Shown here: piece after piece, positions 30,283 to 46,277 of the stretch | Position numbering within the stretch: the stretch's first letter is position 1 | Layout of the letters: every line of letters starts with the position of its first letter | NCBI GenBank assembly: GCA_007131725.1 | Contig: SLPZ01000037.1 | Location: 1-46,277 of the forward strand | Direction: 5' to 3' | Length of the DNA stretch: 46,277 nucleotides | From: Balneolaceae bacterium | Lineage (GTDB): Bacteria; Bacteroidota; Rhodothermia; Balneolales; Balneolaceae | The notes under the pieces: generated by a model | Seen by the model: only the letters and a program-made list of their open reading frames with translations | What the model was told of the DNA's origin: nothing | The model's database searches: none | Position numbers and translations under genes: made by a program

Positions 30283-30305
30283 CGTTTTATGTTTTGGTTA
30301 TCTGT

Positions 30306-31517
30306 TTAATCATTTGTTTTTGAAACTGTTACACCCGGCGGATAAGCAAAATCGTTCCACAGCTTATCAAGTTTTTCCGGATCGGGTTCACCATCGTATG
30401 TAATATAACGATACCTGACAACATAGGGCGAACCGGGTTCGATAGACATTTCTCCCAGCTGTTGAGGAGCGTAATTAAAAAACGGTTCATTCGGATGGAT
30501 GCGAACCGGCTGCGGATGCCTGAAATTGGATGGATGGCTCATGATGGCAATACCGGCAAGCTGCCCATCGCTGTGCCCACCAATGTGTGTCCAGTTTACG
30601 CGGGTGGCGTGGCCGTCTCTGCCGAGGCCGTCAGACGTTAAGAAAGTGCAATTATCCGGATCATCCCAATCTTTGTGGCCGCGAAAGCCCACACCGCCGT
30701 AACGGTATTCCGGCAACACCAGCGGACTCGAAGTATTCGCAGTTTGGGAAACAACCAGGTCGAATTTATGATATCCTTCCGGCGATTTAAACACCCGAAC
30801 CTGCCACTCCTCGTTCAGTGCAATGACCGGTTCATCCCCCGAAAAATCCTCAAAAAAGTGATGGGAACGGAATCCGGAAAATACCGGCCCCTGCCAGGTT
30901 TCTTCAAGGCGTTCGGCATGATTAACCCTGCCGGTGTAGTTGTGAATATTCCAGAAATCGGGGGTTCGGCCCTGAAATTCAGTGTTTGTCCACGCCGACC
31001 ATATTCCGGAGTGATGTGGATGCATGTCAACATTCAGATGATTGGTAAGCACGGTTCCTGCAGGTGAATAAACCGGATGAATATAACCGCCGCGTTTATA
31101 ATCCAAATCCAGTTCATCCGGAATGGTGTTATATCCGTGATAGTAGCTTAGCACTTCACGGCCACTGTTTTGGATCACAATTGTATTTTCATCTGTTTGA
31201 TATTGAACTTCACTGCCGGCTGAGCTTTTTTCACCTTCTAACAGAAATGTTTTGGACTCTCCGGCGGACAGATCATCCAGGATGAACCAACCGCGGTTGT
31301 TGCGGTCAACTTGGAGCGGTTTTTCTTCACCGTTATCACCGGTTATTGAATAAACTCCTGCTTCAATTTCGCCGGGAAAATAAAATGACACAACAGAGTT
31401 TGAACGGTCAAAATCTCCGGCAGACACCGATATTTGATAGGATTGGGCAAAAAGCCCGCTAACACCAAAAAGTAATGTAATCAAAATCGCTAAAATAGCT
31501 CTTAAAATAATATGCAT
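30306..31517 (-). CDS. DUF6807 ('PmoA-like') secreted protein
   Basis: 403 residues. A cleavable signal peptide (ILAILITLLFGVSGLFAQ) is present and no lipobox. The core carries the same features as the neighbour at 29122: DMHPHHSGIWSAWTNTEF, WQGPVFSGFRSHHFFEDFSG and LPEYRYGGVGFRGHKDWDD. The many His and Asp residues could bind a metal or a sugar acid. It starts 54 bases after the uxaC stop and precedes the second DUF6807 gene by 23 bases, so one transcript may run uxaC, DUF6807, DUF6807, Gfo. The function is unknown. Confidence 0.8.
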   Translation of the reverse strand: MHIILRAILAILITLLFGVSGLFAQSYQISVSAGDFDRSNSVVSFYFPGEIEAGVYSITGDNGEEKPLQVDRNNRGWFILDDLSAGESKTFLLEGEKSSAGSEVQYQTDENTIVIQNSGREVLSYYHGYNTIPDELDLDYKRGGYIHPVYSPAGTVLTNHLNVDMHPHHSGIWSAWTNTEFQGRTPDFWNIHNYTGRVNHAERLEETWQGPVFSGFRSHHFFEDFSGDEPVIALNEEWQVRVFKSPEGYHKFDLVVSQTANTSSPLVLPEYRYGGVGFRGHKDWDDPDNCTFLTSDGLGRDGHATRVNWTHIGGHSDGQLAGIAIMSHPSNFRHPQPVRIHPNEPFFNYAPQQLGEMSIEPGSPYVVRYRYITYDGEPDPEKLDKLWNDFAYPPGVTVSKTND

Positions 31518-31571: not shown

Positions 31572-32993
31572 TCATTCATCTGAATCATATCTGAAATACT
31601 TTTTCGTATTTAAGTAACAGATTTTTTCAATTAAATGGGATAAAAGTTCAATGTCATTCGGTATCAGGCCTTTTTCAGCGTCGTTTCCGATTACATTGCA
31701 AAGTATCCGTCGGAAATAGTCGTGCCGTGAAAATGAAAGAAAGCTTCTCGAATCAGTTGTCATCCCGATAAATTCGCTTAGCACACCCATGTTCGAAATC
31801 ACTTCAAGCTGGTTTTCGATGCCGTTTTTTTGATCCAGGTGCCACCATGGAGGGCCGTGCTGCATTTTACCGGGTATGGTTCCGTCCTGGAAATTTCCCG
31901 TCATGGTAGCAAACACTTCATTATCGCAGGGATTGTTGTTGTACAGAACCGTTCGGGGAAGTTTGTTGTCCCTGTCCAGCCGGTCGAGCAGGCGTGAAAG
32001 CGGCCGGGCCGTTTCAAAATCACCCATCGAATCAAAACCGGTATCGGGGCCGAGTTTTTTCATCATCCTGCTGTTATTATTGCGCAGCGCCCCGATATGG
32101 AGCTGATACACCCATTCTTTCTCGTGATCCATCAGGCCGCTATAGTGAAGAAATGCCGATTTAAATTTCCTCTCTTCCTGCTCCAAAACCGGTTTCCCCG
32201 AAAGTGCTTTCTGGAAAATCGTATTGCACTCTTTATCTGTGAATTCATCAGAAAACGGCTCCGTAATCCCATGGTCGGATGCCCGGCAGCCCATCTCATG
32301 GAAAAAATCGTGGCGGAGTTTGATAGCATCCAGGAAATCCTGAAAAGATGAAATGCTTTTATCTGAAGATGCTTCCAGCTTATTGACCCATACTTTAAAC
32401 TGATCCGGATTTTCAACTTTCATACCGGCATCCGGCCGGAAGGTGGGAACCATCAAAAAATCGGTGTTTTTCTCTTTTTGGTATGCCTGATGATACTCGA
32501 GCGAATCGGTGGGATCGTCGGTGGTAGCAACCACTTCAACCCGGAATTGCTGAAGCAAGCTTCGTGTAGAAAATTCAGGGGATTTTAGCATTTCGTTGCA
32601 CTCGTCCCAGATCTCCTCAGCAGTTTCCCCATTCAGCAGGCGGCCGTTTATCCCGAATGGAAAAGCCAGCTCCATGTGCGTCCAGTGATAGAGCGGGTTT
32701 CTCAATGTTTTGGGGACGGTTTCTGCCCAGGCTAAAAATTTATCTTTGTCAGTTGCATCTCCGGTAATGTACTTTTCATCCACACCGCAGGCCCGCATTG
32801 CCCGCCATTTGTAGTGATCTCCCGCAAGCCAGATTTGTGTGAGATTTTTGTAGTTCACATCCTGCACAATTTCATCCGGAGGCAGATGGTTGTGATAGTC
32901 AATCACCGGCAGATCAACAGCCATACCATAATAAAGCCTGCGTGCAGTTTCGTTTTCAAGCAGAAAATTTTCGTGAATAAATGGGGTTTTCAT
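31572..32993 (-). CDS. uxaC: Glucuronate/galacturonate isomerase
   Basis: 473 residues, the normal length. The enzyme converts D-glucuronate to D-fructuronate and D-galacturonate to D-tagaturonate in the cytoplasm. Recognisable blocks are DLPVIDYHNHLPPDEI with the metal-binding HNH, TQIWLAGDHYKWRAMRACGV, NPLYHWTHMELAFPFGI, VVATTDDPTDSLEYH, GMTTDSRSFLSFSRHDYFRRI and the C-terminal helices. It lies 230 bases downstream of kdgK, across a tandem-repeat gap, and probably has its own promoter. Its product is fed to the SDR reductase directly or through UxaE. Confidence 0.95.
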   Translation of the reverse strand: MKTPFIHENFLLENETARRLYYGMAVDLPVIDYHNHLPPDEIVQDVNYKNLTQIWLAGDHYKWRAMRACGVDEKYITGDATDKDKFLAWAETVPKTLRNPLYHWTHMELAFPFGINGRLLNGETAEEIWDECNEMLKSPEFSTRSLLQQFRVEVVATTDDPTDSLEYHQAYQKEKNTDFLMVPTFRPDAGMKVENPDQFKVWVNKLEASSDKSISSFQDFLDAIKLRHDFFHEMGCRASDHGITEPFSDEFTDKECNTIFQKALSGKPVLEQEERKFKSAFLHYSGLMDHEKEWVYQLHIGALRNNNSRMMKKLGPDTGFDSMGDFETARPLSRLLDRLDRDNKLPRTVLYNNNPCDNEVFATMTGNFQDGTIPGKMQHGPPWWHLDQKNGIENQLEVISNMGVLSEFIGMTTDSRSFLSFSRHDYFRRILCNVIGNDAEKGLIPNDIELLSHLIEKICYLNTKKYFRYDSDE

Positions 32994-33031
32994 TGTTTTT
33001 GAGTATTTCAGTATTGAGTATCAAGTAGTGA

Positions 33032-33090
33032 GAAGGCAGACGGCAAAAGGCAAAAGGCAGAAGGCAGAAGGCAGAAGGCAGAAGGCAAAA
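33032..33090. repeat. Tandem GGCAGAA/GGCAAAA heptamers
   Basis: About eight 7-base units, alternating between GGCAGAA and GGCAAAA, run from 33032 to 33090 in the gap upstream of uxaC. The reverse complement of the run, TTCTGCC units, appears at 33193-33219, so the two runs could pair around about 100 bases that contain the palindrome at 33094-33118. Slippage between units can be expected. Confidence 0.8.
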
Positions 33091-33093
33091 GTA

Positions 33094-33118
33094 TGGCGCA
33101 AACGTCCCGTTTGTGCCA
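33094..33118. repeat. GCGCAAACG/CGTTTGTGC palindrome, copy 2
   Basis: TGGCGCAAACG and CGTTTGTGCCA flank TCC; 10 of 11 pairs match. It is the longer copy of the hairpin at 25400-25420 and sits directly after the heptamer run. Confidence 0.65.
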
Positions 33119-33192
33119 TTTTCTAAAACAACAGTAATATTTTGAAAATTTCTAATAATCTAATATCCAATTAATCTACTGCACCCATTTCA

Positions 33193-33219
33193 CTTCTGCC
33201 TTCTGCCTTCTGCCTTCTC
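33193..33219. repeat. Tandem TTCTGCC heptamers, inverted relative to 33032-33090
   Basis: About four TTCTGCC units end just before the kdgK stop codon near 33224. They are the reverse complement of the upstream heptamers and could form a long stem with them. The position at the end of the kdgK operon suggests a possible transcript-end role. Confidence 0.75.
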
Positions 33220-33223
33220 ACGC

Positions 33224-34255
33224 CTACCTCTCCACCCGGCCGGAGCCGCCGCTTTTTACCAATTTTTCCACTTCATCCGCGCGAACCAGGTTAAAATCGC
33301 CGGGAATGGTATGTTTCAGGCACGATGCAGCCACGGCAAATTCCAGGGCATCATTTGAATTCTCTTTTGTCAGCAGGCCGTAAATCAGCCCGGATGCAAA
33401 CGAATCGCCTCCGCCTACACGATCAACTATGTCAATTTCATACCGGGTTGAGCGCTGAGGAACCTTACATTCCTTGTCATCATGAAGCAATGCGCTCCAT
33501 CCGTTCATGCTTGCCGAGAAACTTTCCCGCAACGTGATGGCAACGGTTTCAAAACCGTATTCCTTTTTTAAAGCCCTGGCGAGGGTTACATAGCCCTCTT
33601 CATCCAGCTCAGCCGCTTCAATATCCGTTGACCCTGCTTCAAACCCGAGGCTTCGCTGGGCATCTTCTTCGTTGGCGATGCATACATCCACATACTCCAT
33701 CAGCGGATTCATCACAGCCTGGGCTTCTTTTTCTGTCCAGAGTTTAGCCCGAAAATTCAGATCGCAGCTAACGGTTGCACCGGCTTTTTTCGCTGCCACA
33801 CACGCATCTTTTACCGCCTGTGCAGGCTTTTGTCCCAGTGCCGGTGTGATTCCCGTCCAGTGAAACCAATCTTTGCCTTCAAACACGGCATCCCAGTCCA
33901 CCAGTGATGCATCCAGTTCACAAACGGCAGACCGCGAACGGTCGTAAATCACTTTCGATGCCCGCTGGCTTGCTCCGGTTTCCAGGAAATAGACTCCGAG
34001 CCTTTCTCCGCCCCTGAGGATATGATCGGTACGAACACCATAACGGCGCACCGACTGCAATGCCGCTTCACCAATTTCGTGTTCGGGCAAGTGGGTTACA
34101 AAATAGCTTTCCAGGCCGTATCCGGCCAAAGCCACAGCAACGTTAGCTTCACCGCCGCCATAACTAACATCAAATTGATCAGACTGAACAAACCTCTTAA
34201 AACCCGGTGTGGAGAGACGGAGCATAATTTCTCCGAATGTGACAATTTTTTTCAT
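33224..34255 (-). CDS. kdgK: 2-keto-3-deoxygluconate kinase
   Basis: 343 residues. A PfkB-family sugar kinase that uses ATP to turn KDG into KDPG. MKKIVTFGEIMLRLSTPGF, YGGGEANVAVALAGYG, FHWTGITPALG and the PfkB signature DRVGGGDSFASGLIYGL with its catalytic Asp are all present. The C-terminal SGGSGRVER is short and basic. The start overlaps the stop of the KDPG aldolase gene by 4 bases, so kinase and aldolase are translated together. It is the last gene of the TRAP-uxaE-SDR-eda-kdgK operon. Confidence 0.93.
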   Translation of the reverse strand: MKKIVTFGEIMLRLSTPGFKRFVQSDQFDVSYGGGEANVAVALAGYGLESYFVTHLPEHEIGEAALQSVRRYGVRTDHILRGGERLGVYFLETGASQRASKVIYDRSRSAVCELDASLVDWDAVFEGKDWFHWTGITPALGQKPAQAVKDACVAAKKAGATVSCDLNFRAKLWTEKEAQAVMNPLMEYVDVCIANEEDAQRSLGFEAGSTDIEAAELDEEGYVTLARALKKEYGFETVAITLRESFSASMNGWSALLHDDKECKVPQRSTRYEIDIVDRVGGGDSFASGLIYGLLTKENSNDALEFAVAASCLKHTIPGDFNLVRADEVEKLVKSGGSGRVER

Positions 34256-34908
34256 TTTCCTAAATTTTCAACCAAAATTTTTGCGTTATTTTCAATTTTT
34301 TTGAAATCTCTGTTTTTTAAGTCGTTGCTGCTCACCAGCGCACTCCCAACTCCAACAGCACACGCACCGGCTGCCAGCCACTCTTTGCCGTTGGTTAATG
34401 TAACGCCACCGGTTGGCATCAGTTTGAGATGGGGCATCGGGGCTTTTACAGCTTTGAAAAACTCCATTCCCACAATATTAGCCGGAAACACTTTGACAAT
34501 ATCGGAGCCAAGCTCCCAGGCGTACTGAATTTCAGTTGGTGTGAATGCCCCGGCCATAACCGGCTTGCCCATTTCCAGCGATTTTTCAATTACCTCTCTT
34601 TTTACAATCGGGCTGACCACAAACTGTGCCCCGGCCTCAATTGCCTGCTGAGCCGTTGGCGCATCCAGAACCGAGCCGACTCCCAGAAGCATATCACCGG
34701 GAAGAGATTCCGAAGCTTTTTTGATTAAACCGATGGCATCCGGCACGGTCATGGTAATTTCCAGAATTTTCACTCCACCGTTATAAAGTGCTTCGGCTAC
34801 CGGTTCAAACAGTGCGGCATCAGGAATTCTGAGAACCGCAACGGCTTTTTCTTTCTCAATAAACTTGAGTATTTCAGAACGTGTCATTTTTTCGATTTTC
34901 AAATTCAA
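34252..34908 (-). CDS. eda: KDPG (2-keto-3-deoxy-6-phosphogluconate) aldolase
   Basis: 218 residues. A class I aldolase that splits KDPG into pyruvate and glyceraldehyde-3-phosphate. Core residues: ILEITMTVPDA with the catalytic Glu, MLLGVGSVLDAPTAQQAIEAGA, KPVMAGAFTPTEI, and DIVKVFPANIVG with the Schiff-base Lys, followed by LMPTGGVTLTN. It is 5 bases after the SDR gene and overlaps kdgK by 4 bases. KHG aldolase activity may be shared, as is common in the family. Confidence 0.94.
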   Translation of the reverse strand: MNLKIEKMTRSEILKFIEKEKAVAVLRIPDAALFEPVAEALYNGGVKILEITMTVPDAIGLIKKASESLPGDMLLGVGSVLDAPTAQQAIEAGAQFVVSPIVKREVIEKSLEMGKPVMAGAFTPTEIQYAWELGSDIVKVFPANIVGMEFFKAVKAPMPHLKLMPTGGVTLTNGKEWLAAGACAVGVGSALVSSNDLKNRDFKKIENNAKILVENLGK

Positions 34909-34913
34909 ATTCT

Positions 34914-35696
34914 TCAGATGGTCATGGCAGTAAACCCACCATCAACAGGTACAATGGCCCCGGTTACGAAAGATGACGCCTCATTGGATGCCAGCCACAA
35001 CAAAGCACCTGAAAGTTCCGATGGCTCTCCGAATCTTTTCATCGGGGTGTGATTAAAAATGGCTTCGATGCGTTCATCCGTCAAAATTTCACGGTTCTGT
35101 TCAGCGGGAAAAAATCCCGGAAGGATTGCATTCACACGGATGTTATGAGGCGACCATTCCCTGGCCAGAAATTTTGTCATATTATTCACCCCTGCTTTTG
35201 AAATACTGTAGGTAAACACTTCGGAGAGCGGAATTTCAGATGAAGCCGAAGATATATTAATGATGCTGCCTGCGGTTCTTGATTCAATCATTATTTTAGC
35301 GGCTATTCTGCTGGCAAGGAATACTCCTTTCAGGTTCACATCCATGATTAAATCCCACTCCTCGTCGGTGATCTCCATCACAGGTGTTGTGGAATTTACA
35401 CCCGGTGCATTTACCAAAATATCGATTCTCTCCCATCGGTCAATCACTTTTTGAAAAGCCATTTGTAGAGAGGAATGATCACGTACATCAGCCTGACAAA
35501 TTTTTGCAGTGCCTCCCTCCTTTTCGATGGCAGCTTTTTGTTCCTCAGCTCCTTCAACATTTCCGCTGTAAAATATGGCAGTTTTAGCTCCGGCTCCGGC
35601 CAGTGCTAATGCCATTTCGCCGCCGAGCACACCGCTTCCGCCAATAACTACAGCAACTTTATTCTTTAATGAAAATAAATTTTGATGCTCTTTCAT
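34914..35696 (-). CDS. SDR-family fructuronate (mannonate) reductase
   Basis: 260 residues of the classical short-chain dehydrogenase type. VVIGGSGVLGGEMALALAG is the nucleotide site and YSISKAGVNNM holds the catalytic Tyr and Lys. NAILPGFFPAEQNREIL is typical of the SDR-type mannonate oxidoreductase known from Bacillus (UxuB/YjmF-like). Between uxaE and eda, it most likely reduces D-fructuronate to D-mannonate, the substrate of UxuA. It is not related to the long-chain UxuB of E. coli. The assignment depends on both motif and context. Confidence 0.82.
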   Translation of the reverse strand: MKEHQNLFSLKNKVAVVIGGSGVLGGEMALALAGAGAKTAIFYSGNVEGAEEQKAAIEKEGGTAKICQADVRDHSSLQMAFQKVIDRWERIDILVNAPGVNSTTPVMEITDEEWDLIMDVNLKGVFLASRIAAKIMIESRTAGSIINISSASSEIPLSEVFTYSISKAGVNNMTKFLAREWSPHNIRVNAILPGFFPAEQNREILTDERIEAIFNHTPMKRFGEPSELSGALLWLASNEASSFVTGAIVPVDGGFTAMTI

Positions 35697-35724
35697 GAGA
35701 TTAGGTACGTTTTATCCATTATAA

Positions 35725-37227
35725 TCAATTTTTCTGTACAAACGGACGAAGATGCTTATCAAAATGTGAGACAAGGTTTTGTTCGTACAGTGTTTCGTTT
35801 ACGGACAGGCACTTCATCAATTTTTCTTTCATGTTTTTTGATTTGGAACTGTTACCACCCAGAACTGATCCGAATGTAACATGCAGCACCTGCCGGGCAT
35901 TGTTATCGTCCAATAGCTTTTTCAAATCTTCGTCTTTCAAAGAATCCCCATCAGGTACTTGTTCAGGCCGGGCTGAAATGTGGTAGGTTTTTTTATCGTC
36001 GTCAAACCGTGTTTTTGAAAATACCAGGATTTCACGAAACAGTCCGGGATCGGCTTCTGCCACCGTTCGTAGTGCTTCAAGATAGCTGGTGCCCGCTGTT
36101 TTTACGTGAACAGCGCCTTCTCGCAGCGAACCTATCACTTCGTAAACCGAAAATTTATCGCTGCCGGAGTGGATGCTGAGTTTGTATCCGCCAAACATTT
36201 CAGCTACAGCAAGATGATCTTCGTACTCTTCTTTGAATTGTCCCAGATCGCCCTTAAAGTCAATTCCTTTCTCAAAATCGCCGCAAAACCGGGGCGCCAG
36301 GCTTACAAGTTCAACTCCCAACCTGCTTAGCTCGGATGCAATCAGATAGTGTTCAAAAACGGTTGTAGGCTGATCGGTCTCATCCACCGAAAGTTCCAGA
36401 TCGGACGGTTTGTTCGGGTAATTATCGCTAATATAATCCGCCAATTTTTTTGTGTGGGTGATGACCCTGCCGTATTTCACCATCCCCTGCATGATGGATC
36501 TGTGTGACGGATTGAGCTCAAATCCAGATTTCAGCCTGATGCTATCGTGCCCTTTTCTGTCCAGAAAATCAGCCGGGTGATCCTGAAGCTCTTCCCACGG
36601 CAATTTTTTATAAAGCTGCTGAAGGTCTTCATCATTCATTGAGAGTGCTTCATTGACTACATAATCGCTCGGGTCGATGGTGAACATCGCAAACCCCGAT
36701 TTCATCATCAGGTCAATATCATCTGTGGTTTTCAGGTGATCGCCATCAGCCCCGAAACCGTCTTTATATCCCTCGCGAAAAACCGCCCAGCTTGCCGCAT
36801 CCATCACTTCCTGTGCCGTCCGGTTAGTGCGTTCAAGTTCACGAATGGATTGCTGGGCAAGCACCGGCTTGAAATCCGTTTTTCGGATCACTTTCAGATG
36901 TGCAGCGCCTGCATTCCCAAGGCGGTCGCCAAGCCCGTAGGAATTTTGCTTGCCAATCAGCACCGGCCGGGTGAATGGAAATCGCTCTCTGAGTGCTCGG
37001 GCATTATTTGCAGAAAGCGGACATTTCAAAAAACTGGCGCCATCAACAGAAACTTCTTCTCCTTCAAAAGGCAAATCCTTAAGAAGTTTGCGTTCACCCT
37101 GAATCACCAGAAATTGGTCAAGATTCTGCCGCATCATAAAAAAGGTAAGGCCGCCATCTTGAATGTGAGACTCTCTGTATACGTTTGCCTCCGGGAAATC
37201 TTTGAAAAACGTGTCAGTCATATTCAA
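35725..37227 (-). CDS. uxaE: Tagaturonate epimerase
   Basis: 500 residues. Members of the UxaE family interconvert D-tagaturonate and D-fructuronate, letting galacturonate enter the mannonate branch without altronate enzymes. I recognise it from the overall sequence, with NSYGLGDRLGNAGAAHL near the N-terminus, FGADGDHLKTTDDIDLM, ISVDETDQPTTVFEHYLIA-like segments and FGGYKLSIHSGSDKFSVY with likely metal-binding His/Glu residues. No altronate dehydratase (UxaA) or tagaturonate reductase is encoded in the window, which fits an epimerase bypass. It lies 22 bases downstream of dctM and 28 bases upstream of the SDR gene. Confidence 0.85.
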   Translation of the reverse strand: MNMTDTFFKDFPEANVYRESHIQDGGLTFFMMRQNLDQFLVIQGERKLLKDLPFEGEEVSVDGASFLKCPLSANNARALRERFPFTRPVLIGKQNSYGLGDRLGNAGAAHLKVIRKTDFKPVLAQQSIRELERTNRTAQEVMDAASWAVFREGYKDGFGADGDHLKTTDDIDLMMKSGFAMFTIDPSDYVVNEALSMNDEDLQQLYKKLPWEELQDHPADFLDRKGHDSIRLKSGFELNPSHRSIMQGMVKYGRVITHTKKLADYISDNYPNKPSDLELSVDETDQPTTVFEHYLIASELSRLGVELVSLAPRFCGDFEKGIDFKGDLGQFKEEYEDHLAVAEMFGGYKLSIHSGSDKFSVYEVIGSLREGAVHVKTAGTSYLEALRTVAEADPGLFREILVFSKTRFDDDKKTYHISARPEQVPDGDSLKDEDLKKLLDDNNARQVLHVTFGSVLGGNSSKSKNMKEKLMKCLSVNETLYEQNLVSHFDKHLRPFVQKN

Positions 37228-37249
37228 AAAATGGTGAATTCATTTAAAA

Positions 37250-38545
37250 TCAGTAGCCGAATAATCGCGGCAGGAAAAGGCTCAGTTCTTCAAAATAGGT
37301 TACCAGAAGCAGAGATATGACCATAGCAAAGAAGAGTGGCAGCAGCGGTTTGATCACTCTTGTGATGGAGATGTTTGAAATTCCGCATCCCACAAAGAGC
37401 ACACTTCCAACAGGCGGCGTGCAGAGCCCCACACTCAGATTCAGCACCATCACGATCCCGAAGTGAACGGGATCCATGCCCATTTCAACAACAAGCGGCA
37501 AAAATATTGGGGTGAAAATGAGAACGGCCGGAGTCATATCCATAAAAACACCCACTCCCAAAAGAATGATGTTAATGATGATCAAAATCACAAAAGGATT
37601 GTCGCTGAGGGCAATAAGACCTTCGGTTACAAAAATCGGGATATTTTCGTACGACATAACCCACGACATGGCCATAGATGTAGCAATCAAAAGAGCAACA
37701 ATTGCAGTGGTATTACAGCTTGAAAGGAATACTTCTTTGAGCTGTTTAAAATTAAGGCTGCGGTAGGCAAAGGCAAGAATCAGAGCATAAACAACGGCGA
37801 TGGCTGATGCTTCGGTTGCTGTGAATATTCCGGCTACAATCCCGCCAATCACAAGAATGATGAGAAAGAGGCTGGGAATAGACTCTATGAATTTTCGGAA
37901 TGCAAATCCAAGCGAAACCCGTCCTGTTACGGGATACTTTCGTTTAAAAGCAAAATACCCCGAAACCCCCATCAGCGATAACCCCACCAAAATTCCGGGA
38001 ATATATCCTGCCAGAAAAAGTGCCGCAATAGAGGCGCCGCCGCTTGCAAGCGAGTAAACAATCAAGATATTGCTGGGCGGTATGATGAGGCCGGTTGTGG
38101 AGGAGGTGATATTCAGCGCTGTGCTGAAATCTTTATCGTAGCCTTCTTTTTCCATCTGAGGGCCCATAAACCCGCCAATGGCCGACGCCGTGGCTACCGC
38201 CGAACCGGAGATGGAACCAAACAGCATGGCTGCCACCACCTGTACATAAGCCAGTCCTCCGGGCAGCATCCCCACGATGGATTTTGCAAAATCGATCAGC
38301 CTGCGGGCTATACCGCCCTGGTTCATAATCTGTCCTGCCAGTATAAAAAATGGGATGGCAAGCAGTGTGAAGCTGTCGAGGCCGGTGGCCATTCGCTGGG
38401 CAACGGTAGTTACGGCCGGATCGAATGGAATACTGACAAACATTGTGAAAAGCGTGGCAATCCCGATGCAAAAAGCAATGGGCACCCCAATCATCAAAAG
38501 CAGAACAAAAGTAATAATGAGAACGAGAATTCCTGCCAATTCCAT
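37250..38545 (-). CDS. dctM: TRAP transporter large permease (DctM)
   Basis: 431 residues with about 12 membrane helices. The DctM signatures are present: LLMIGVPIAFCIGIATLF, LLAIPFFILAGQIMNQGGIARRLIDFAK, MLFGSISGSAVATASAIGGFM and LGVGVFMDMTPAVLIFTPIFLP. It forms the ion-driven channel that pairs with DctQ and the periplasmic DctP. The stop of dctQ and the start of dctM share one base. TRAP systems take up sugar acids with Na+, which fits the uronate operon. Confidence 0.94.
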   Translation of the reverse strand: MELAGILVLIITFVLLLMIGVPIAFCIGIATLFTMFVSIPFDPAVTTVAQRMATGLDSFTLLAIPFFILAGQIMNQGGIARRLIDFAKSIVGMLPGGLAYVQVVAAMLFGSISGSAVATASAIGGFMGPQMEKEGYDKDFSTALNITSSTTGLIIPPSNILIVYSLASGGASIAALFLAGYIPGILVGLSLMGVSGYFAFKRKYPVTGRVSLGFAFRKFIESIPSLFLIILVIGGIVAGIFTATEASAIAVVYALILAFAYRSLNFKQLKEVFLSSCNTTAIVALLIATSMAMSWVMSYENIPIFVTEGLIALSDNPFVILIIINIILLGVGVFMDMTPAVLIFTPIFLPLVVEMGMDPVHFGIVMVLNLSVGLCTPPVGSVLFVGCGISNISITRVIKPLLPLFFAMVISLLLVTYFEELSLFLPRLFGY

Positions 38546-39060
38546 TAAACAGCCTCGCTTGGTTTGGGTTCAGGGGTTGTTGATTCATCTTTGCCCGCCA
38601 AAATACCTTTGATGAAAACAATGGCGTAGAAAATGATTAAAACTCCGCTCAGCGGAAGCACACTGTAAACATAGGCCAGTCTTATCTGTATTGCTGCCGA
38701 CACCTGGTTCAGTTCCCAGGTTAAATAAACGAGATAACTGCCGCCGATAACCAAAACCAGCAGTGTGAAAATTGCAATCATAGAATGAATAAAGATCCCG
38801 AGCCATTTTTTGCGCTCACCCTTCACTTTATCGGAAAAATAATCGAAAGCCAGGTGCAGGTTTTTACGATAGGCATATGCTGAACCAAGCAACCCGATCC
38901 AGATCAGTAAAAAACGGGCAATTTCCTCGGTGTAAGAACTGGCGGCCCCGAGCAAATAGCGGGTAGCCACCTGCCAGGTAACATCCACAACCAAAACTGC
39001 CATCAGCAGCACCATAACCCATTCAAGAATTTTGTCGATAATCCCGGCAGTTTTATTCAT
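38545..39060 (-). CDS. dctQ: TRAP transporter small permease (DctQ)
   Basis: 171 residues with four membrane helices (for example ILEWVMVLLMAVLVVDVTWQV and GIFIHSMIAIFTLLVLVIGGSY) and the DctQ hallmark ARFLLIWIGLLGSAYAYRKNLHLAFD. It bridges DctM and the substrate-binding protein. Its start overlaps the dctP stop by 8 bases. The C-terminus GKDESTTPEPKPSEAV is polar and likely cytoplasmic. Confidence 0.93.
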   Translation of the reverse strand: MNKTAGIIDKILEWVMVLLMAVLVVDVTWQVATRYLLGAASSYTEEIARFLLIWIGLLGSAYAYRKNLHLAFDYFSDKVKGERKKWLGIFIHSMIAIFTLLVLVIGGSYLVYLTWELNQVSAAIQIRLAYVYSVLPLSGVLIIFYAIVFIKGILAGKDESTTPEPKPSEAV

Positions 39061-40030
39061 CGGCCATCTCCTGTATTCTTTCGATATAGCTCTTCAGTTC
39101 ATCCGACTCATCCATAAATTCCTGCCAGAGAGGCTGAAGCCTTTCAATGAACGGCTCCTTATCGGGATAATTTATTTCAATTCCTGCTTCCTCTACGGCG
39201 GTGAGTGCCTGTTCGGTAGCTTCGCGCCACAACTGCCGCTGATAAATTCCGGATTCTTCGGCCGCTCTTCTTACAATTTCCTGCTCATCCTCAGTGAGAC
39301 GTTCCCAGGTAAGCAGGCTGATAAAAAGAATATCCGGCACGGCGGTATGTTCATTCAAACTGTAATAACCCGTTACTTCGTAGTGGCGCGATAAATGAAA
39401 GCTTGGCGGATTGTTTTCTGCCCCTTCCACAATTCCCTGCTGCAGTGCCGTGTAAAGCTCACCCCAGGAAATAGGCGTAGCATTGCCGCCGAGCAGGTTC
39501 ACCATCTGTATCGCTGCCGGACTTTCCTGAACCCTGATTCTCATTCCCGTCAGGTCATCCGGGTGATGAATGGGCCGGTCTTGTGTGTAGAAACTGCGGG
39601 TGCCGGCATCGTAATAGGTGAGGCCCATCAGGCGGATCCGGCTTCCGGCATCGAGAAGTTCACGGCCAATATCACCATCCCAAACCCTGTAGCGGTGCTC
39701 TTCATCCAGAAAAAGGAAGGGGACGCTGAATACTTTGTATATGGGATCGAAGCCTTCAATCACACTCGAAGAAACTTTGGTGACGTCAACACTTCCGATC
39801 TGAAGCAGCTCCAGTAGTTCGCGTTCGGTACCCAACTGCTGGCTGGGGTACACATCCATCCGCATATTCCCCTCCGAATATTCATACACCCGCTCGGCCA
39901 TGTATACCATTGCATGATGGACCGGATGGGATGTATCGAGGCCATGGCCAAGTTTTAGAACGGTAATATCATCGCCCTCTGAGCAAGAGAACAGGAACAG
40001 GGCAATAAGTAATAAATAGCTTCTTTTCAT
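39053..40030 (-). CDS. dctP: TRAP transporter substrate-binding lipoprotein (DctP), likely uronate type
   Basis: I chose the ATG at 40030 (MKRSYLLLIALFLFSC, 325 residues); an upstream ATG at 40048 adds six polar residues before the signal. The lipobox FLFSC marks a lipid-anchored protein. The TRAP signature MRIRVQESPAAIQMVNLLGG contains the Arg that binds the substrate carboxylate, followed by TPISWGELYTALQQGIVEGAENNPPSF. Members with this motif often bind hexuronates. It heads the operon dctP-dctQ-dctM-uxaE-SDR-eda-kdgK; the 234-base gap upstream must hold its promoter. Confidence 0.92.
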   Translation of the reverse strand: MKRSYLLLIALFLFSCSEGDDITVLKLGHGLDTSHPVHHAMVYMAERVYEYSEGNMRMDVYPSQQLGTERELLELLQIGSVDVTKVSSSVIEGFDPIYKVFSVPFLFLDEEHRYRVWDGDIGRELLDAGSRIRLMGLTYYDAGTRSFYTQDRPIHHPDDLTGMRIRVQESPAAIQMVNLLGGNATPISWGELYTALQQGIVEGAENNPPSFHLSRHYEVTGYYSLNEHTAVPDILFISLLTWERLTEDEQEIVRRAAEESGIYQRQLWREATEQALTAVEEAGIEINYPDKEPFIERLQPLWQEFMDESDELKSYIERIQEMADE

Positions 40031-40282
40031 TAAGGATTCATCAATCAAAAACTTCGAAAATAATTACATTCACAACTATATAAAGTAACCTACAGAGACT
40101 TTATACTCAAAAAGATTTAAAGTTTTTTTCATGATAAGTAAAACTGTATAAGTAAACCTGTTTAGCAATTTTTTAAATATTCTGCAGGAGCTTTACAAAA
40201 CCTCAATCAGATACAGTTCTGTTATTGGATAATTTGGTATCCATTTTAGTTTGAAATAAAAGCTACTTTTTATATCAAATGT

Positions 40283-41767
40283 TTAATCCATCAATCGAAT
40301 AAGTTCAACGCGGCGATTCAGGGCGCGCCCCTCTTCTGTTTCATTGGTGGCTTCGGGTGCCAGAAAAGCGACTCCGTGAGGAGAAAGCCTGTCATCTGAA
40401 ATTCCATATTCAGAAACCAGTTGCTCCACAACAGCCTCAGCCCGCCGTTCTGACAGGTCCATATTAAAATCCAAACCACCCACCGCATCGGTATGGCCAA
40501 CAACGCCGAGGTTGAGGTCAGGGTTATTATTCAGCAGATCTGCGATCTCAGCAAGCGTTGATTCAGACTCCGGCTTGATGTCTGCCTGGCCCGTATCAAA
40601 ATGAATTCCGTAAATCATCACGCGGCCTGCATCATCTAAATCTGATGCCATGGTAGCTGCATCGACCGACACATCAACCATGCCGGTTTCCATAGGTTGT
40701 TCTTCTAAAATGATAAGCATTGAACGGTTTTCACCATGCCTGCGGGCTGTATGGACAGCCACATAGATATCACCCGCCGGATTTGTAAGCCTGGCAAGCG
40801 AGTAGTGGCGATGGTTGCCTCTTCTATACACATTGTCATAGCCGAGCGGTGCATCAGATTGAATGATTTCAAAACATTGAGCATCATCATGCATACATTC
40901 ATAAATGATGTCAAAACCGGCATCCTGAAGGGCCAGTTTATAGTTTTGATGCACCTCATATTCCGAACGCCCTTCTGGGGCTTCATAATGAATTCGGCTC
41001 ACCGCACCTTCAAATGCGGTTCTTATAAATTCGCGATCTTCCAATCCCGTTACCAGCTCCTGACGGTCATGAGAAAACTGCTCATGATCAATGATATGCG
41101 ATCCCTCATAACGCGTAATCATCGGGTGGTCTTCGCTTCCTTCTGCGTCTTCTGTTTCTGTATCCACCTTAACAACCTCATCAACTGACACCCTTGCCTC
41201 AACGTCTACCTGAACCTTATCAGCCTCTAATGGCCGTTCCTCCAGGATAATCAGCAAGTTCCTGTTTTCACCGTGCCTGCGGGCAGTATGGACAGCCGCA
41301 TAAATATCACCATCAGGGTTTTCAAGTCTGGCCAGCGAGTAGTGGCGGTGACTCCCTCGCCTATACACATTATCATAACCAAGCGGTGCATCGGATTGTA
41401 CGATTTCAAAGCATTGAGCATCATCATTCATACATTCATAAAGAATGTGAAAACCGGCATCCTGAAGGGCCAGTTTATAGTTTTGATGCACTTCATATTC
41501 CGAACGCCCTTCTGGGGCTGCATAATGGATTCGGGTCACCATCCCTTCTAATGCACTTCGTATAAATTCGCCATCTTCCAATTCCGTTACCAGCTCCTGC
41601 CGGTCATAAGCAAACTGCTCATAATCGATGATATGCGAACCCTCATAACGCGTAATGATCGGATGGTCTTCACTTCCTTCTACGTCTTCTTCCTGGGCGT
41701 GTAAATAGGATAAACCAGGAAAAACAAAAATCAGTATTGACAGATATAGCATCGTTTTTTGTAACAT
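40283..41767 (-). CDS. OmpA-family protein with tandem duplicated DUF4892-like domain
   Basis: 494 residues. A signal peptide (1-24, ending LHAQ) precedes two copies of one domain at residues 30-179 and 209-358 in exact register (offset 179 codons), about 85% identical by my count. Each copy has GSEDHP.ITRYEGSHIID, APEGRSEYEVHQNYKLALQD and ECM.DDAQCFEI with two cysteines; it resembles DUF4892. An OmpA-like domain follows (about 381-494) with GVVGHTDAVGGLDFNMDLSERRAEAV, which binds peptidoglycan. The start has a good ribosome-binding GGAG. It is a periplasmic or outer-membrane-associated protein that stands alone; the ligand of the DUF4892-like copies is unknown. Confidence 0.87.
   Translation of the reverse strand: MLQKTMLYLSILIFVFPGLSYLHAQEEDVEGSEDHPIITRYEGSHIIDYEQFAYDRQELVTELEDGEFIRSALEGMVTRIHYAAPEGRSEYEVHQNYKLALQDAGFHILYECMNDDAQCFEIVQSDAPLGYDNVYRRGSHRHYSLARLENPDGDIYAAVHTARRHGENRNLLIILEERPLEADKVQVDVEARVSVDEVVKVDTETEDAEGSEDHPMITRYEGSHIIDHEQFSHDRQELVTGLEDREFIRTAFEGAVSRIHYEAPEGRSEYEVHQNYKLALQDAGFDIIYECMHDDAQCFEIIQSDAPLGYDNVYRRGNHRHYSLARLTNPAGDIYVAVHTARRHGENRSMLIILEEQPMETGMVDVSVDAATMASDLDDAGRVMIYGIHFDTGQADIKPESESTLAEIADLLNNNPDLNLGVVGHTDAVGGLDFNMDLSERRAEAVVEQLVSEYGISDDRLSPHGVAFLAPEATNETEEGRALNRRVELIRLMD
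40694..41143. repeat. Copy 2 of the internal direct repeat in the OmpA-like gene
   Basis: It encodes residues 209-358 and aligns without gaps to 41231-41680. Long runs are identical, for example the stretch coding for YEVHQNYKLALQDAGF; differences are scattered substitutions. Confidence 0.9.
41231..41680. repeat. Copy 1 of the internal direct repeat in the OmpA-like gene
   Basis: It encodes residues 30-179. The period of 537 bases includes a divergent linker (residues 180-208, rich in Val, Asp and Glu) that separates the two copies. Confidence 0.9.
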
Positions 41768-41901
41768 GAATATACTCCAGCTTTATTGGGTTGTCCGTTT
41801 AATAAGTTCCGGAAATGCCAATTTCCGACACAAGCGATGTTTTATTCGGATACTATATCAAAAAAAGTTTCTGACTCTTGAATTAATTGAGTAATCGATT
41901 T

Positions 41902-42027
41902 TTAAAAGGCAACGGACACATTGGAAGCTTTTTTAGATCTCTTGAATAAGATTCCAGTTCCTGTAACTAAACGAGATTTGTCTAAAAGATCATGGTAAAA
42001 AGTTGCATTCAGTAATAGGGGATTCCC
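41902..42027 (-). pseudogene. Possible C-terminal gene fragment
   Basis: Between an in-frame TAG at 42028-42030 and a TAA at 41902-41904 the minus strand encodes 41 residues including NATFYHDLLDKSRLVTGTG and ending KKASNVSVAF. There is no ATG in frame. The composition looks like a real protein end, but no family is recognised and AT-rich DNA gives such frames by chance. Confidence 0.2.
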
Positions 42028-42108
42028 CTATGCAAATTAACAAATCAGGAAAGCTGAGGATATTCGGCAGGTGTTTATTCTGAGTAGTACTTATATTTCA
42101 AGTGAGTA

Positions 42109-42240
42109 TTAATCATTCAAAACCTCAAAAATCACATCAATTTTCAACTGTGCAGGATAATTTTCTAAACCTTCTGACTCAAAAAGATTAGACGTTTTTG
42201 AAGCGGTAGTTTCATATTGGAAATCAATTCTCTTAAAAAT
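42109..42240 (-). pseudogene. Possible C-terminal gene fragment
   Basis: The minus strand encodes 43 residues, including LFESEGLENYPAQLKID and ending VIFEVLND, before a TAA at 42109-42111. It lacks a start codon; a second frame (KFVVSEAKFLREL) enters from the MaoC side, so a frameshifted remnant is conceivable. It cannot be assigned to a family. Confidence 0.22.
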
Positions 42241-42288
42241 TTAGCCTCACTCACAACAAATTTTATAAGGCCGCTATACACCCAAACA

Positions 42289-42708
42289 CTATTCTGAACT
42301 CTTACGAAATACTTCCGTATTTTTTAATTGGCTTTTGAATACTATACATGTTTTTCCCTCTTTGTTTTTTATAACATTTCTGAATTCGCCAATATTCAAT
42401 TGATTATTAATCGATTTTAGTTTTATAGAGAGGGTATAGGTTTCATCAACAAAAACCGGCCTTAAAAATGTTATCTCTTTCTGAATCAGAATTGTTTCTC
42501 CCGGAAATTTTGTACCAGCAATTTTTGTGAACGAAGAAGCAGCTAAATTTCCTTGAACGATTGGTTTTCCGAATTCAGATTCCGTTGTTAACTCCTCATC
42601 TACATGCAAGGGATAATCATCCCCTGTAATCTTTGCAAATGCCAACACATCTTCCCTGCTGAAAGATATTTGGCCCTTAATAGTATCTCCTGGTTCTCTG
42701 AGACTCAT
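42289..42708 (-). CDS. MaoC-like hotdog dehydratase/hydratase
   Basis: 139 residues. A MaoC-type hotdog fold with the hydratase motif FAKITGDDYPLHVDEEL (Asp30/His35 region) and FGKPIVQGNLAASSFTKI. Such enzymes hydrate enoyl thioesters or dehydrate (R)-3-hydroxyacyl thioesters. The gene is last in the acyl-synthesis operon, 30 bases after the KAS III gene. It could form or remove the double bond of a short acyl-ACP. It may instead act only as a thioester-binding domain. Confidence 0.82.
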   Translation of the reverse strand: MSLREPGDTIKGQISFSREDVLAFAKITGDDYPLHVDEELTTESEFGKPIVQGNLAASSFTKIAGTKFPGETILIQKEITFLRPVFVDETYTLSIKLKSINNQLNIGEFRNVIKNKEGKTCIVFKSQLKNTEVFRKSSE

Positions 42709-42738
42709 TTTTTGTTCAACTCTGTCATGAATATACTG

Positions 42739-43797
42739 TTACATTTCAATGATATCTGCAATGTGGCAGTCAGGCAGATTTATTATTGCGCTTCCCCATG
42801 ACAGCCCGTTACCAAATGCGCTCAAACAAAGTGTCCTTTTCTCACTTGTTTTATTTTTTAACCTTGAAACGATTGTAAGAGGTACTGAAACGGATGAGGT
42901 ATTTCCAAATGTGTCAAGACTTGAGGGAACCTTTTCGTGATCAAGTTTTAATTTTTTAACTAAAAAATCATTGATAATTTTATTTGCCTGATGAAAAATA
43001 TAATAGTCAATTGATTCTTTTTCTTTTTCAGCATAACCTAAAAGTTTTTTTAGATCTTTCGGTACTTCTTTTGCTGCAAAGTTAAATACATTTAATCCGT
43101 CGATATGTCCCTGTTCATCATTCCGGATATTTCCATCATCGTCCACTACTTTTTCTTTCAGGCTATCCACTGAACTTGGCTGCCTGTACCCGCCTGCATC
43201 AATTTTTATCATTCCTGATTTAGATCCGTCCGAATTCAAAGAAAAAAAACTTTCTCCAAAGGAATCATCCTTATCGATAATTGCAGCAACTCCTGCATCA
43301 CCAAAAAGAAAAGCAGTTTTCCGGTCTTTTGATGAATAAACCTTCGATCTTGTTTCCCCATTCAGTATTAACACTTTATTGATACCAGTGTTAGAAATCA
43401 TGGAGTAGGCTACTTGTAAAGCAAACACGAATGCAGAACATCCAAGGGTGATATCAAATGCAATGGTTCCCTGTTTTAAACCGAGCCTCTCCTGGAGTAT
43501 TATCGATGTGGCCGGCATTCTATAGTCTGGGGTTTGAGATACAAAGAGCAGTACATCAATTTCAGATTTATCGATGTCCATTTCTTCAATCAATTGCTGT
43601 GCGGCAGCCAGGCATAAATCCGATGAGCAGGTATGTTCATCAGCAAATCGTCGTTCAAATACCCCGATCTTATCCACCACCTTTTTTACTTCATCTTTGG
43701 GAAAGTGCCCGGTGTACTCATAATTATTTATAACGTTGCCGGGTACTGCGGCAGCAATCCCCGATATGCCTGCATTTTTATATTTTAGTAAAGGCAT
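42739..43797 (-). CDS. 3-oxoacyl-ACP synthase III (KAS III/FabH-like)
   Basis: 352 residues. It condenses an acyl starter with malonyl-ACP. The catalytic triad is visible: Cys120 in DITLGCSAFVFALQ, His269 in YYIFHQANKII and Asn299 in DTFGNTSSVSVPL. It is slightly longer than housekeeping FabH and divergent. The next gene upstream, 9 bases away, encodes an SDR ketoreductase. A second KAS III is encoded upstream at 45498, sharing the FHQAN, GNTSS and GLSWGSA blocks. It likely supplies a dedicated acyl group for a surface molecule rather than membrane lipids. Confidence 0.88.
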   Translation of the reverse strand: MPLLKYKNAGISGIAAAVPGNVINNYEYTGHFPKDEVKKVVDKIGVFERRFADEHTCSSDLCLAAAQQLIEEMDIDKSEIDVLLFVSQTPDYRMPATSIILQERLGLKQGTIAFDITLGCSAFVFALQVAYSMISNTGINKVLILNGETRSKVYSSKDRKTAFLFGDAGVAAIIDKDDSFGESFFSLNSDGSKSGMIKIDAGGYRQPSSVDSLKEKVVDDDGNIRNDEQGHIDGLNVFNFAAKEVPKDLKKLLGYAEKEKESIDYYIFHQANKIINDFLVKKLKLDHEKVPSSLDTFGNTSSVSVPLTIVSRLKNKTSEKRTLCLSAFGNGLSWGSAIINLPDCHIADIIEM

Positions 43798-43806
43798 GGC
43801 TATTAT

Positions 43807-44556
43807 TTAATTTAAAGTTAATCCACCGTCAATCAATATTGAAGTACCTGTAACCCAGGCTGAGGCGTCTGAAAGTAAATATATAATGGCATAGGCAACT
43901 TCTTCCGGGGTGCCGTAACGTCCCAGCGGATAATTTTTCAAATTCTCTTCTAACTGTTTTTCTGATATATAGCGTAACTTCATCATGGGCGTTTCTATCA
44001 TCGCCGGATTTACACTGTTGCACCTGATGCCTTTCGATGCCAGATCAACAGCGGCACTTTTCATAAAACCGTTAAGGGCGGCTTTGGATGATGAATACAT
44101 TCCGTTCGCCGGCGAAAAGTTATAATTTCCGGCCGTGGAAGATGTATAAACGATGGAAGATGGCCTTTTCAACTTTTTCATTTTCAAAAGATTCCTCGTC
44201 ATCATAATCGGAATCTTGGAATTCAGCTGAAAAATTCGGTCAAGATCATCGGGTTTTATAGACTTCACAGGAGATAGTTTCACAATCCCGGCATTAACCA
44301 CAAACCCGTCTAATTCCGGCAGAAATTCCAGCAGCTGCTGCATTTCGTCAGGGTTTGTCAGGTCAGTCCTGAATTGAAGATGCCCGTCACCTTCCAGTTG
44401 CGAATAGGTATCATATAAACGCTCTTTATTTCTGCCCGTAACAACCACTGTGGCGCCCATTTTTGAGCATTCAACGGCTGTAGCCCTTCCAATACCTGAT
44501 GATGCACCTGTTATAAAAATCGTTTTATTATGTAAAGAAAATGGGTTATTAGTCAT
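43807..44556 (-). CDS. SDR-family ketoreductase (FabG-like)
   Basis: 249 residues. The nucleotide motif is TGASSGIGRATAVE (about 16-29), NAGIVKL follows, and the catalytic GMYSSSKAALNGF carries Tyr and Lys. The C-terminus ASAWVTGTSILIDGGLTLN is typical. It probably reduces the 3-ketoacyl-ACP made by the neighbouring KAS III to 3-hydroxyacyl-ACP. Its start overlaps the ACP gene by 8 bases. Context favours acyl-ACP over a sugar substrate. Confidence 0.86.
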   Translation of the reverse strand: MTNNPFSLHNKTIFITGASSGIGRATAVECSKMGATVVVTGRNKERLYDTYSQLEGDGHLQFRTDLTNPDEMQQLLEFLPELDGFVVNAGIVKLSPVKSIKPDDLDRIFQLNSKIPIMMTRNLLKMKKLKRPSSIVYTSSTAGNYNFSPANGMYSSSKAALNGFMKSAAVDLASKGIRCNSVNPAMIETPMMKLRYISEKQLEENLKNYPLGRYGTPEEVAYAIIYLLSDASAWVTGTSILIDGGLTLN

Positions 44557-44785
44557 TAGTACGGTTTTTCACAATTTTGAACAGATCTTCAATCGTTCTT
44601 GCATTCAATATATCATCTCCATCAAGTTCAACTTCATACTCCTCGTCAATCAAAATAATTGCTTCCAATGCCATTAATGAATCCCATTCATCCAGGGCTT
44701 TGAAATCAGTATTTTTAGAAAATTTACTTTCAGGGGTTACTTCAAAGATGCTGACAAAGTGTTTTGTAAATGTTTCTAATTCCAT
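44549..44785 (-). CDS. Acyl carrier protein
   Basis: 78 residues, acidic and helical. The phosphopantetheine site is Ser36 in DEWDSLMALEAIILIDEEY. It differs from the housekeeping AcpP motif (GADSLDTVE), so it is a specialised ACP. It lies between the acyltransferase gene and the ketoreductase gene and probably carries the intermediates of this operon. Confidence 0.9.
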   Translation of the reverse strand: MELETFTKHFVSIFEVTPESKFSKNTDFKALDEWDSLMALEAIILIDEEYEVELDGDDILNARTIEDLFKIVKNRTND

Positions 44786-44815
44786 GAGAATTTGTTGTTT
44801 TATTAATATTTAATC

Positions 44816-45448
44816 TTATTGAATTTTCTTTGCCGGATTACCAAAAACGGCTGTGCCTGGTTTCACATCTCTAATCACAACACTCGCTGCCCCAACGGTT
44901 GAATTTTCTCCAATTTTGATTCCTGGAATAACAGTAGCTCGCACATTTATTTGAACTTTTTTATCGACCTGAACATGACCGCCTAAAAACACAAAAGGAC
45001 CCAGGTGGCACCAATTTCCAATTGTACAATCATGGCCTATGACTGATTGGGTCATTATTGTTACAAAATCACCTACCTTAACTTCCGGAGACAGGATTGC
45101 ATTATAACCAACAATACAACCCACACCCAATTTTACTGCTTTTGGGACCAATGCCTTAGGACAAACCAATGTTATAAACTGCCCTCCTTTATTCAGGATA
45201 AGTTCTGAATATTTGATTTTTTCATGCACATTTCCAAGAGCACAAATAAATACATCATCTTTTTGAGGTATATAATTTTCAACAGAATCGATGATTGGCG
45301 GATATTCATCAAACTGATTAAGAGCATCATATTTGTCATCAAGAAATCCTTTGATCACAAAATTTTTCTGGTTTTGACTGCAACGTTTTGCTAATTGATA
45401 CACTTCTCTGCCAAAACCTCTTGCTCCAATAATTAATAAATTTTTCAT
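44816..45448 (-). CDS. NeuD/PglD-like left-handed beta-helix acyltransferase
   Basis: 210 residues. An N-terminal nucleotide-fold domain (LLIIGARGFGREVYQLAKR, DDVFICALGNVHEKIKY) is followed by hexapeptide repeats (LGVGCIVGYNAILSPEVKVG, VIGHDCTIGNWCHLGPFVFLGG, GIKIGENSTVGAASVVIRDV) and the closing PGTAVFGNPAKKI. Relatives acylate amino sugars used in glycans, usually from acetyl-CoA. Here an ACP and KAS III genes are adjacent, so an acyl-ACP donor is a good possibility. It is 49 bases downstream of a second KAS III gene. Confidence 0.88.
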   Translation of the reverse strand: MKNLLIIGARGFGREVYQLAKRCSQNQKNFVIKGFLDDKYDALNQFDEYPPIIDSVENYIPQKDDVFICALGNVHEKIKYSELILNKGGQFITLVCPKALVPKAVKLGVGCIVGYNAILSPEVKVGDFVTIMTQSVIGHDCTIGNWCHLGPFVFLGGHVQVDKKVQINVRATVIPGIKIGENSTVGAASVVIRDVKPGTAVFGNPAKKIQ

Positions 45449-45497
45449 TTACTAAACCTGATTCAAAATATATAAGATATTTAGTACGACAGTCAAT

Positions 45498-46277
45498 CTA
45501 AATCTCAATTAAATCACAACATATGGCATTTCGCAGACTGAAGTATGCACTGCCCCAGGAAAGCCCCACACCGAAACCACATGTAATTACATTCAAAGTT
45601 TTCTGCTTACTATTATTAATCTCATCATGCAATTGTGCAACCATTGCCAGAGGTATGGAACCTGATGACGTATTACCATAATCTTTCAATACAAAGGGTA
45701 CTTTTTTATCAGGAATTTTCAATTTTTTTTGAATGACTTTATTCATCTTCAAATTTGCCTGATGAAAGATAAAATAGTCTATTGTTTCTTTGTCAATCTC
45801 AAAATTTTTTAACAATGCATTTACACTTTTCGGGGCTGTACTAATCCCAAAAGAAAAAACGGACATCCCATCCATATGTGTTTGCAAGCGATTACGAATA
45901 ATACCTTGTTCATATTCTCTTTCTTTCAATGATTCAGAAGTAACAGGATTTCGGCTTCCCCCATCCTCTACCATAATGGCTTTATGATTTTTCCCGTTTG
46001 TACCCATGTGAGTTAAAATTCCATTGGCACCTTCATTATATATCAGGGCTGTGGCCGATCCTGAATCCCCAAAAAGAGGATATGTACTTTTGTCTTTTTT
46101 TGATTTAGAGAATGAAGATGTATCCCCTACAAGCAACAACGCTTTTTCAAATTTACTGGATGAAATAATTGATGAAATGATTGAAAGACCATACACCCAG
46201 CCAGAACAACCCAGTGATACATCAAAACTCATGCACTCCTTAGAAAGGCCCAATCTTGATTGCAAGATACAGGCTGT
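45498..46277 (-). CDS. 3-oxoacyl-ACP synthase III, partial at window edge
   Basis: The C-terminal 259 residues of a KAS III are visible; the frame runs off the right end as TACILQSRLGLSKE. A TTG at 46265 is an internal codon, not the start. Visible catalytic residues are Cys in DVSLGCSGWVYGL, His in DYFIFHQANLKMN and Asn in DYGNTSSGSIPL. It is a diverged paralogue of the gene at 42739 and heads the visible part of the operon. Confidence 0.88.
   Translation of the reverse strand, partial: TACILQSRLGLSKECMSFDVSLGCSGWVYGLSIISSIISSSKFEKALLLVGDTSSFSKSKKDKSTYPLFGDSGSATALIYNEGANGILTHMGTNGKNHKAIMVEDGGSRNPVTSESLKEREYEQGIIRNRLQTHMDGMSVFSFGISTAPKSVNALLKNFEIDKETIDYFIFHQANLKMNKVIQKKLKIPDKKVPFVLKDYGNTSSGSIPLAMVAQLHDEINNSKQKTLNVITCGFGVGLSWGSAYFSLRNAICCDLIEI

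Follow-up and report, generated by a model that had tools for sequence, protein, structure and literature searches.

A putative glycan N-acylation cassette, apparently exchanged between species, beside a hexuronate operon in Balneolaceae

The right end of a 46,277-nucleotide stretch of DNA from a Balneolaceae bacterium (the window, which is the entire contig C288, SLPZ01000037.1) carries on its minus strand a compact run of six genes, hereafter the cassette, that resembles an acyl-chain pathway with its own acyl carrier protein (ACP) and a sugar N-acyltransferase. From the contig end inwards, the run comprises KS1, a ketosynthase of the β-ketoacyl-ACP synthase III (KAS III) type (45498-46277; PF08541 at 4e-22, and PF08545), a hexapeptide sugar N-acyltransferase of the NeuD/PglD/VioB type (44816-45448) with PglD_N and Hexapep domains that scores 190 bits against TIGR03570 (cut-off 160.8), a dedicated ACP with a phosphopantetheine motif (44549-44785; PF00550), a FabG-like ketoreductase of the short-chain dehydrogenase/reductase (SDR) family with TGASSGIG and YSSSK motifs in its translation (43807-44556; PF13561), a second and distinct KAS III-type ketosynthase, KS2 (42739-43797; PF08541/PF08545), and a MaoC-type (R)-3-hydroxyacyl dehydratase (42289-42708; PF01575). 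Successive genes from KS1 to MaoC are separated by 49, 30, -8 (an ACP/SDR overlap), 9 and 30 bases, and all are intact bar KS1, which is truncated by the contig end with loss of its N-terminus (about 96 residues; 259 of about 355 are present). The genome is fragmented (331 contigs, about 89% complete), and no contig end matching the missing KS1 N-terminus was found in the rest of it. Both the minus-strand run and its order are as the initial annotation, made from the DNA letters alone, had described them, and each gene matches its family.

The proteins retain the signature residues of their families. The Cys-His-Asn triad (Cys121, His269 and Asn299 of KS1 in the numbering of the copy at locus L038) is invariant in the KS1 and KS2 copies, save where contigs cut the protein; the ACP motif E-W-[D/S]-S-L has an invariant phosphopantetheine serine (7/7 copies), the SDR keeps YxxxK, and Gly-Asp-x-x-Pro-x-His is kept in all six MaoC copies. 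In the NeuD-like enzyme the GHD motif is present and the family's histidine is invariant, and its best solved relatives are VioB (7txp) and perosamine N-acetyltransferase (4ea7). That the two KAS III proteins differ, as first proposed, is confirmed by their identity of about 40% and by their placement in separate clades, each of which mixes cassette members with members from Bacteroidota glycan loci, in a tree with weak support at some deep branches and very long outgroup branches. The E-W-x3-R-T-G stretch, which the genome's housekeeping FabH retains, is missing from both. In Escherichia coli FabH the tryptophan and arginine of this stretch contact coenzyme A (CoA), and the stretch marks housekeeping FabH rather than the whole superfamily; its absence from KS1 and KS2 would fit, without proving, a primer other than free acyl-CoA.

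The cassette recurs in five congeners (G017, G020, G008, G011 and G009), giving six genomes of the genus in all, and MaoC is constant throughout. Against the syntenic set in the nearest congener, G017, the six genes share 70-85% protein identity with dN/dS (the ratio of nonsynonymous to synonymous divergence) of 0.08-0.22, indicating purifying selection, which together with the recurrence in five congeners argues that the cassette is not a chance arrangement. Five of the six cassettes lie in a hexuronate locus, in at least two positions and on the strand of the operon. In the window this neighbouring operon for hexuronate uptake and catabolism (31572-40048, minus strand) follows downstream of the cassette after an OmpA-type protein, and encodes a tripartite ATP-independent periplasmic (TRAP) transporter (P/Q/M), UxaE, an SDR of the mannonate reductase type, 2-keto-3-deoxy-6-phosphogluconate (KDPG) aldolase, a PfkB-type 2-keto-3-deoxygluconate kinase and UxaC; UxaE to UxaC are named by Pfam, and the TRAP genes and the order by comparison with relatives. 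The window's cassette is thus upstream of TRAP, while those of G017, G020 and G008 have UxaE on one side and the mannonate-type SDR or KDPG aldolase on the other (the G008 copy is split over two contigs, the break falling inside KS1), the 3' half of the G011 cassette adjoins the SDR, and no uronate genes accompany the G009 copy on its 6.4 kb contig. The UxaE-SDR junction lacks the cassette in eight genomes of the genus, among them the window's own. Three contigs (G009:C125, G011:C74 and G004:C174) stop no more than about 210 bases past UxaE, which may reflect strain-variable content there.

In the congeners the gene before KS1 varies: it encodes a PF13469 sulfotransferase in G020, G008 and G009 and a glycosyltransferase-like protein (P0001) in G017. 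The sulfotransferase has a relative with 53% identity in another family of the order (G038), in a locus with RmlA-, Wzx- and DegT-like genes (RmlA and Wzx being named by eye from the sequence), and its distant relatives adjoin PglC-like genes; none was found in the rest of the window's genome, in a search that had no positive control there. The G017 protein is a member of a broad family in which Glu-Asp-Asp is invariant, and a profile of 14 of its relatives gave a weak match to POMGnT1 (E 0.008), with a GT25 match for one member, so that we call it a putative glycosyltransferase on these weak matches and on context; a single-sequence structure prediction (mean predicted local distance difference test score 38.7) was not used. 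The G009 locus (L039, G009:C49) reads NeuD-ACP-SDR-KS2-MaoC-sulfotransferase-KS1, a cyclic permutation of sulfotransferase-KS1-NeuD-ACP-SDR-KS2-MaoC, as if it had arisen via a circular intermediate or by tandem duplication with deletion.

Base composition and divergence set the cassette apart from its surroundings. Its G+C content is 37.1%, compared with 46.5% for the remainder of the window, and the cassettes of G020, G017 and G008 stand out in the same way. The window's cassette is bordered at 41768-42288 by an AT-rich non-coding stretch (33.6% G+C) that is probably the left part of an acquired island. Between the window and G017 the cassette genes show 78-85% DNA identity and a synonymous divergence (dS) of 0.56-0.96, whereas ten shared genes of the fab region show 59-76% identity with dS of at least 1.9 or saturated, and UxaE 65%; between G017 and G020 the converse holds, with 75-82% nucleotide identity in the uronate flanks and 54-65% in the cassette genes. 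These contrasts are as expected from block transfer and from replacement of the cassette at a common site, and the cassette therefore appears to be a horizontally exchanged module that has passed as a unit from one species to another. In the cassettes themselves, no integrase or transposase gene was recognised.

Outside the genus, relatives of the cassette are found in a different company. A phylum-wide search with a KS1 profile (E <= 1e-100) gave matches, some of them KS2-type, in 18 of 395 genomes and 7 of 170 genera, and at least 11 of the 14 loci sampled from other genera have PglC-, DegT-, PglF-like or glycosyltransferase genes beside KAS III, ACP, SDR and NeuD. Among the remainder, L113 is unclear, and L115 and L118, from one genus, hold ACP and KAS III with little else recognisable; a separate contig scan with narrow patterns returned five loci, a number that says little about distribution. 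A close parallel is Flavobacterium paronense (L054), where a NeuD-KS1-ACP-KS2-SDR row with KS1 about 54% and KS2 59% identical to the window's lies in a full glycan locus, with sugar-transferase, DegT-type aminotransferase and PglF-type dehydratase genes and Wza/Wzc on its flanks; it differs from the window's run in these flanks and in lacking MaoC. In a Bacteroidales metagenome-assembled genome (L053), an ATP-binding cassette exporter and a DegT aminotransferase stand directly upstream of KS1. Exopolysaccharide loci of Balneolales (L042-L047) likewise place a KS2-type KAS III, an ACP and an SDR beside glycosyltransferase-type genes, but with one ketosynthase only and with KS2-type proteins of a separate clade. 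Three of these loci (L045, L046 and L047) are on separate contigs of G009, whose KS2-type KAS III proteins thus come in addition to that of its cassette, and they also hold a protein of about 164 residues without a Pfam match. At L108, L109 and L110 (G220, G327 and G251), a protein of about 360 residues, Rieske oxygenase-like by eye, lies between or beside the ketosynthases.

A published counterpart exists in the O-polysaccharide R-group genes of Flavobacterium psychrophilum, where the ketosynthases wfpC and wfpE, the ACP wfpD, the ketoreductase wfpF and the PglD homologue wfpG are assigned to making a 3,5-dihydroxyhexanoyl group and placing it on UDP-Qui2NAc4N (PMC6519341). The acyl group itself was established there by nuclear magnetic resonance and chemistry, while the gene assignment is the authors' prediction, and two condensing enzymes are needed because 3,5-dihydroxyhexanoyl takes two condensations (PMC6519341). 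The paper lists the loci under accessions MK214915-MK214917. The window similarly combines two different ketosynthases, a dedicated ACP, a ketoreductase and a PglD homologue in one run; it differs in having MaoC, in the sulfotransferase or glycosyltransferase-like lead gene of its relatives, and in lying by a hexuronate operon instead of in a pglE/pglF-type O-polysaccharide cluster, a setting found only in other genera and neither in the window nor in its congeners. MaoC and the sulfotransferase make the cassette a variant of the known Wfp-type module. With the N-acetyltransferases PglD, VioB, NeuD and PerB the NeuD-like enzyme shares its subfamily (TIGR03570) and two-domain build, but the solved relatives are named acetyltransferases, whereas here an acyl-ACP donor is suggested by the dedicated ACP and condensing enzymes. 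A search of the available literature for viosamine or flagellin precedents found none.

From these comparisons we consider it likely that the cassette serves the N-acylation of a glycan and is exchanged horizontally as a module; it would build a small acyl group on its own ACP for attachment to a surface-glycan amino sugar. On the dedicated ACP, one KAS III would join malonyl-ACP to a short acyl primer, and the SDR would reduce the 3-keto group; the second KAS III would carry out a second extension or take another primer, and a 2-enoyl group could arise if MaoC removes water from one of the 3-hydroxyacyl intermediates. The finished acyl group would then be transferred from ACP by the NeuD/PglD-type enzyme to a nucleotide amino-deoxy sugar, at its 4-amino group, and genes located elsewhere in the genome would incorporate this sugar into a surface glycan. 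We infer the order of these steps, the acceptor sugar and the glycan; by analogy, the product may be a C4-C6 hydroxy- or enoyl acyl group, for example 3,5-dihydroxyhexanoyl or its dehydrated form (hydroxy-hexenoyl). Candidate acceptor pathways in the window's genome are a pseudaminic-acid-type locus with PseC/PseG-type genes (C38), a DesI/VioA-like DegT gene with a NeuD-like gene (C159), this DegT being 53% identical to the aminotransferase beside the ACP-KS1 set in L108, and a DegT gene with WbpB/D-like genes (C139), none of which could be linked to the cassette.

Several observations weigh against this assignment. Neither the window nor the assembled congeners have an aminotransferase, dehydratase or flippase gene next to the cassette, and the window's own end upstream of KS1 is absent from the assembly. 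The resemblance to WfpC-G is one of gene set by description, with F. paronense L054 serving as the sequence stand-in. Moreover, in G013 (L119, G013:C136, 2376-3020) a NeuD gene lies alone between UxaE and the mannonate-type SDR, with no KAS III, ACP or MaoC, so that a NeuD may not require the KAS III genes; it is 60% identical to the NeuD of the G020 cassette and may be a remnant or a minimal form. The initial annotation had proposed transfer of an acyl group from its own carrier to an amino sugar, and had expected glycan genes beyond position 46277, with lipid or polyketide neighbours as the opposing outcome. A dedicated acyl-ACP route ending in an amino-sugar N-acyltransferase, with putative product and acceptor, is supported by the glycan-locus relatives and by the F. 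psychrophilum genes (PMC6519341), but the local glycan genes did not materialise, the congeners showing instead a sulfotransferase or glycosyltransferase-like gene followed by hexuronate catabolism; nor are the neighbours there lipid or polyketide genes.

The genomic position itself raises a different explanation, namely that the cassette works with the hexuronate operon, either to make an acylated or sulfated hexuronate-derived compound or through co-expression, so that glycan acylation responds to uronate supply. The shared strand and the repeated placement in the hexuronate locus, at two or more positions, favour such a link, as does the lone NeuD at the same site in G013, yet we judge it unlikely: homologous sets elsewhere sit in glycan loci, the cassette core and its flanks have separate exchange histories, as at a hot spot, and uronate catabolism has no need of the cassette at the UxaE-SDR junction, since eight genomes have it empty. 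It is similarly doubtful that the cassette is wired to hexuronate catabolism in the sense of being expressed with uronate uptake, such that acylation (and sulfation) of a surface glycan would shift when the cell feeds on uronic-acid polysaccharides and the site, lying away from the glycan cluster, would act as a locus of serotype-like exchange. Much less probable again is a pathway without any glycan link, leading to a small secondary metabolite or a lipid (polyketide-like or a modified fatty acid); a short acyl chain could be made by KAS III, ACP, SDR and MaoC on their own, and the sulfotransferase of the relatives could sulfate a lipid, but the NeuD-like enzyme scores above the cut-off of a subfamily of nucleotide amino-sugar acyltransferases and has its nearest solved structures in VioB and perosamine N-acetyltransferase, and sets homologous to the cassette occupy glycan loci. 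An extra type II fatty acid synthase set for ordinary membrane or lipopolysaccharide lipids, which the FabH-, FabG-, ACP- and MaoC-like proteins could suggest, was rejected as highly improbable given that the genome has its own fab cluster on C291, that the FabH there shares only about 26-30% identity with proteins of the KS1 and KS2 types, and that KS1 and KS2 lack its E-W-x3-R-T-G stretch.

A glycan N-acylation role would extend to the distant Balneolaceae a pathway for glycan acyl groups described, in the literature consulted, from the O-antigen of one fish pathogen, and the added dehydratase and sulfotransferase predict N-acyl groups that have not been reported. If a surface-glycan module is indeed swapped between species at a catabolic operon, searches limited to O-antigen clusters would miss such modules.

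Two further features of the window lie outside the cassette. The OmpA-type protein between the cassette and the TRAP genes (40283-41767) contains two DUF4892 stretches, an internal duplication. Following the hexuronate genes, two adjacent DUF6807 proteins (29122-31517) are encoded beside Gfo/Idh/MocA and ApbE proteins, and one DUF6807 protein is also present in G008 and in G025.

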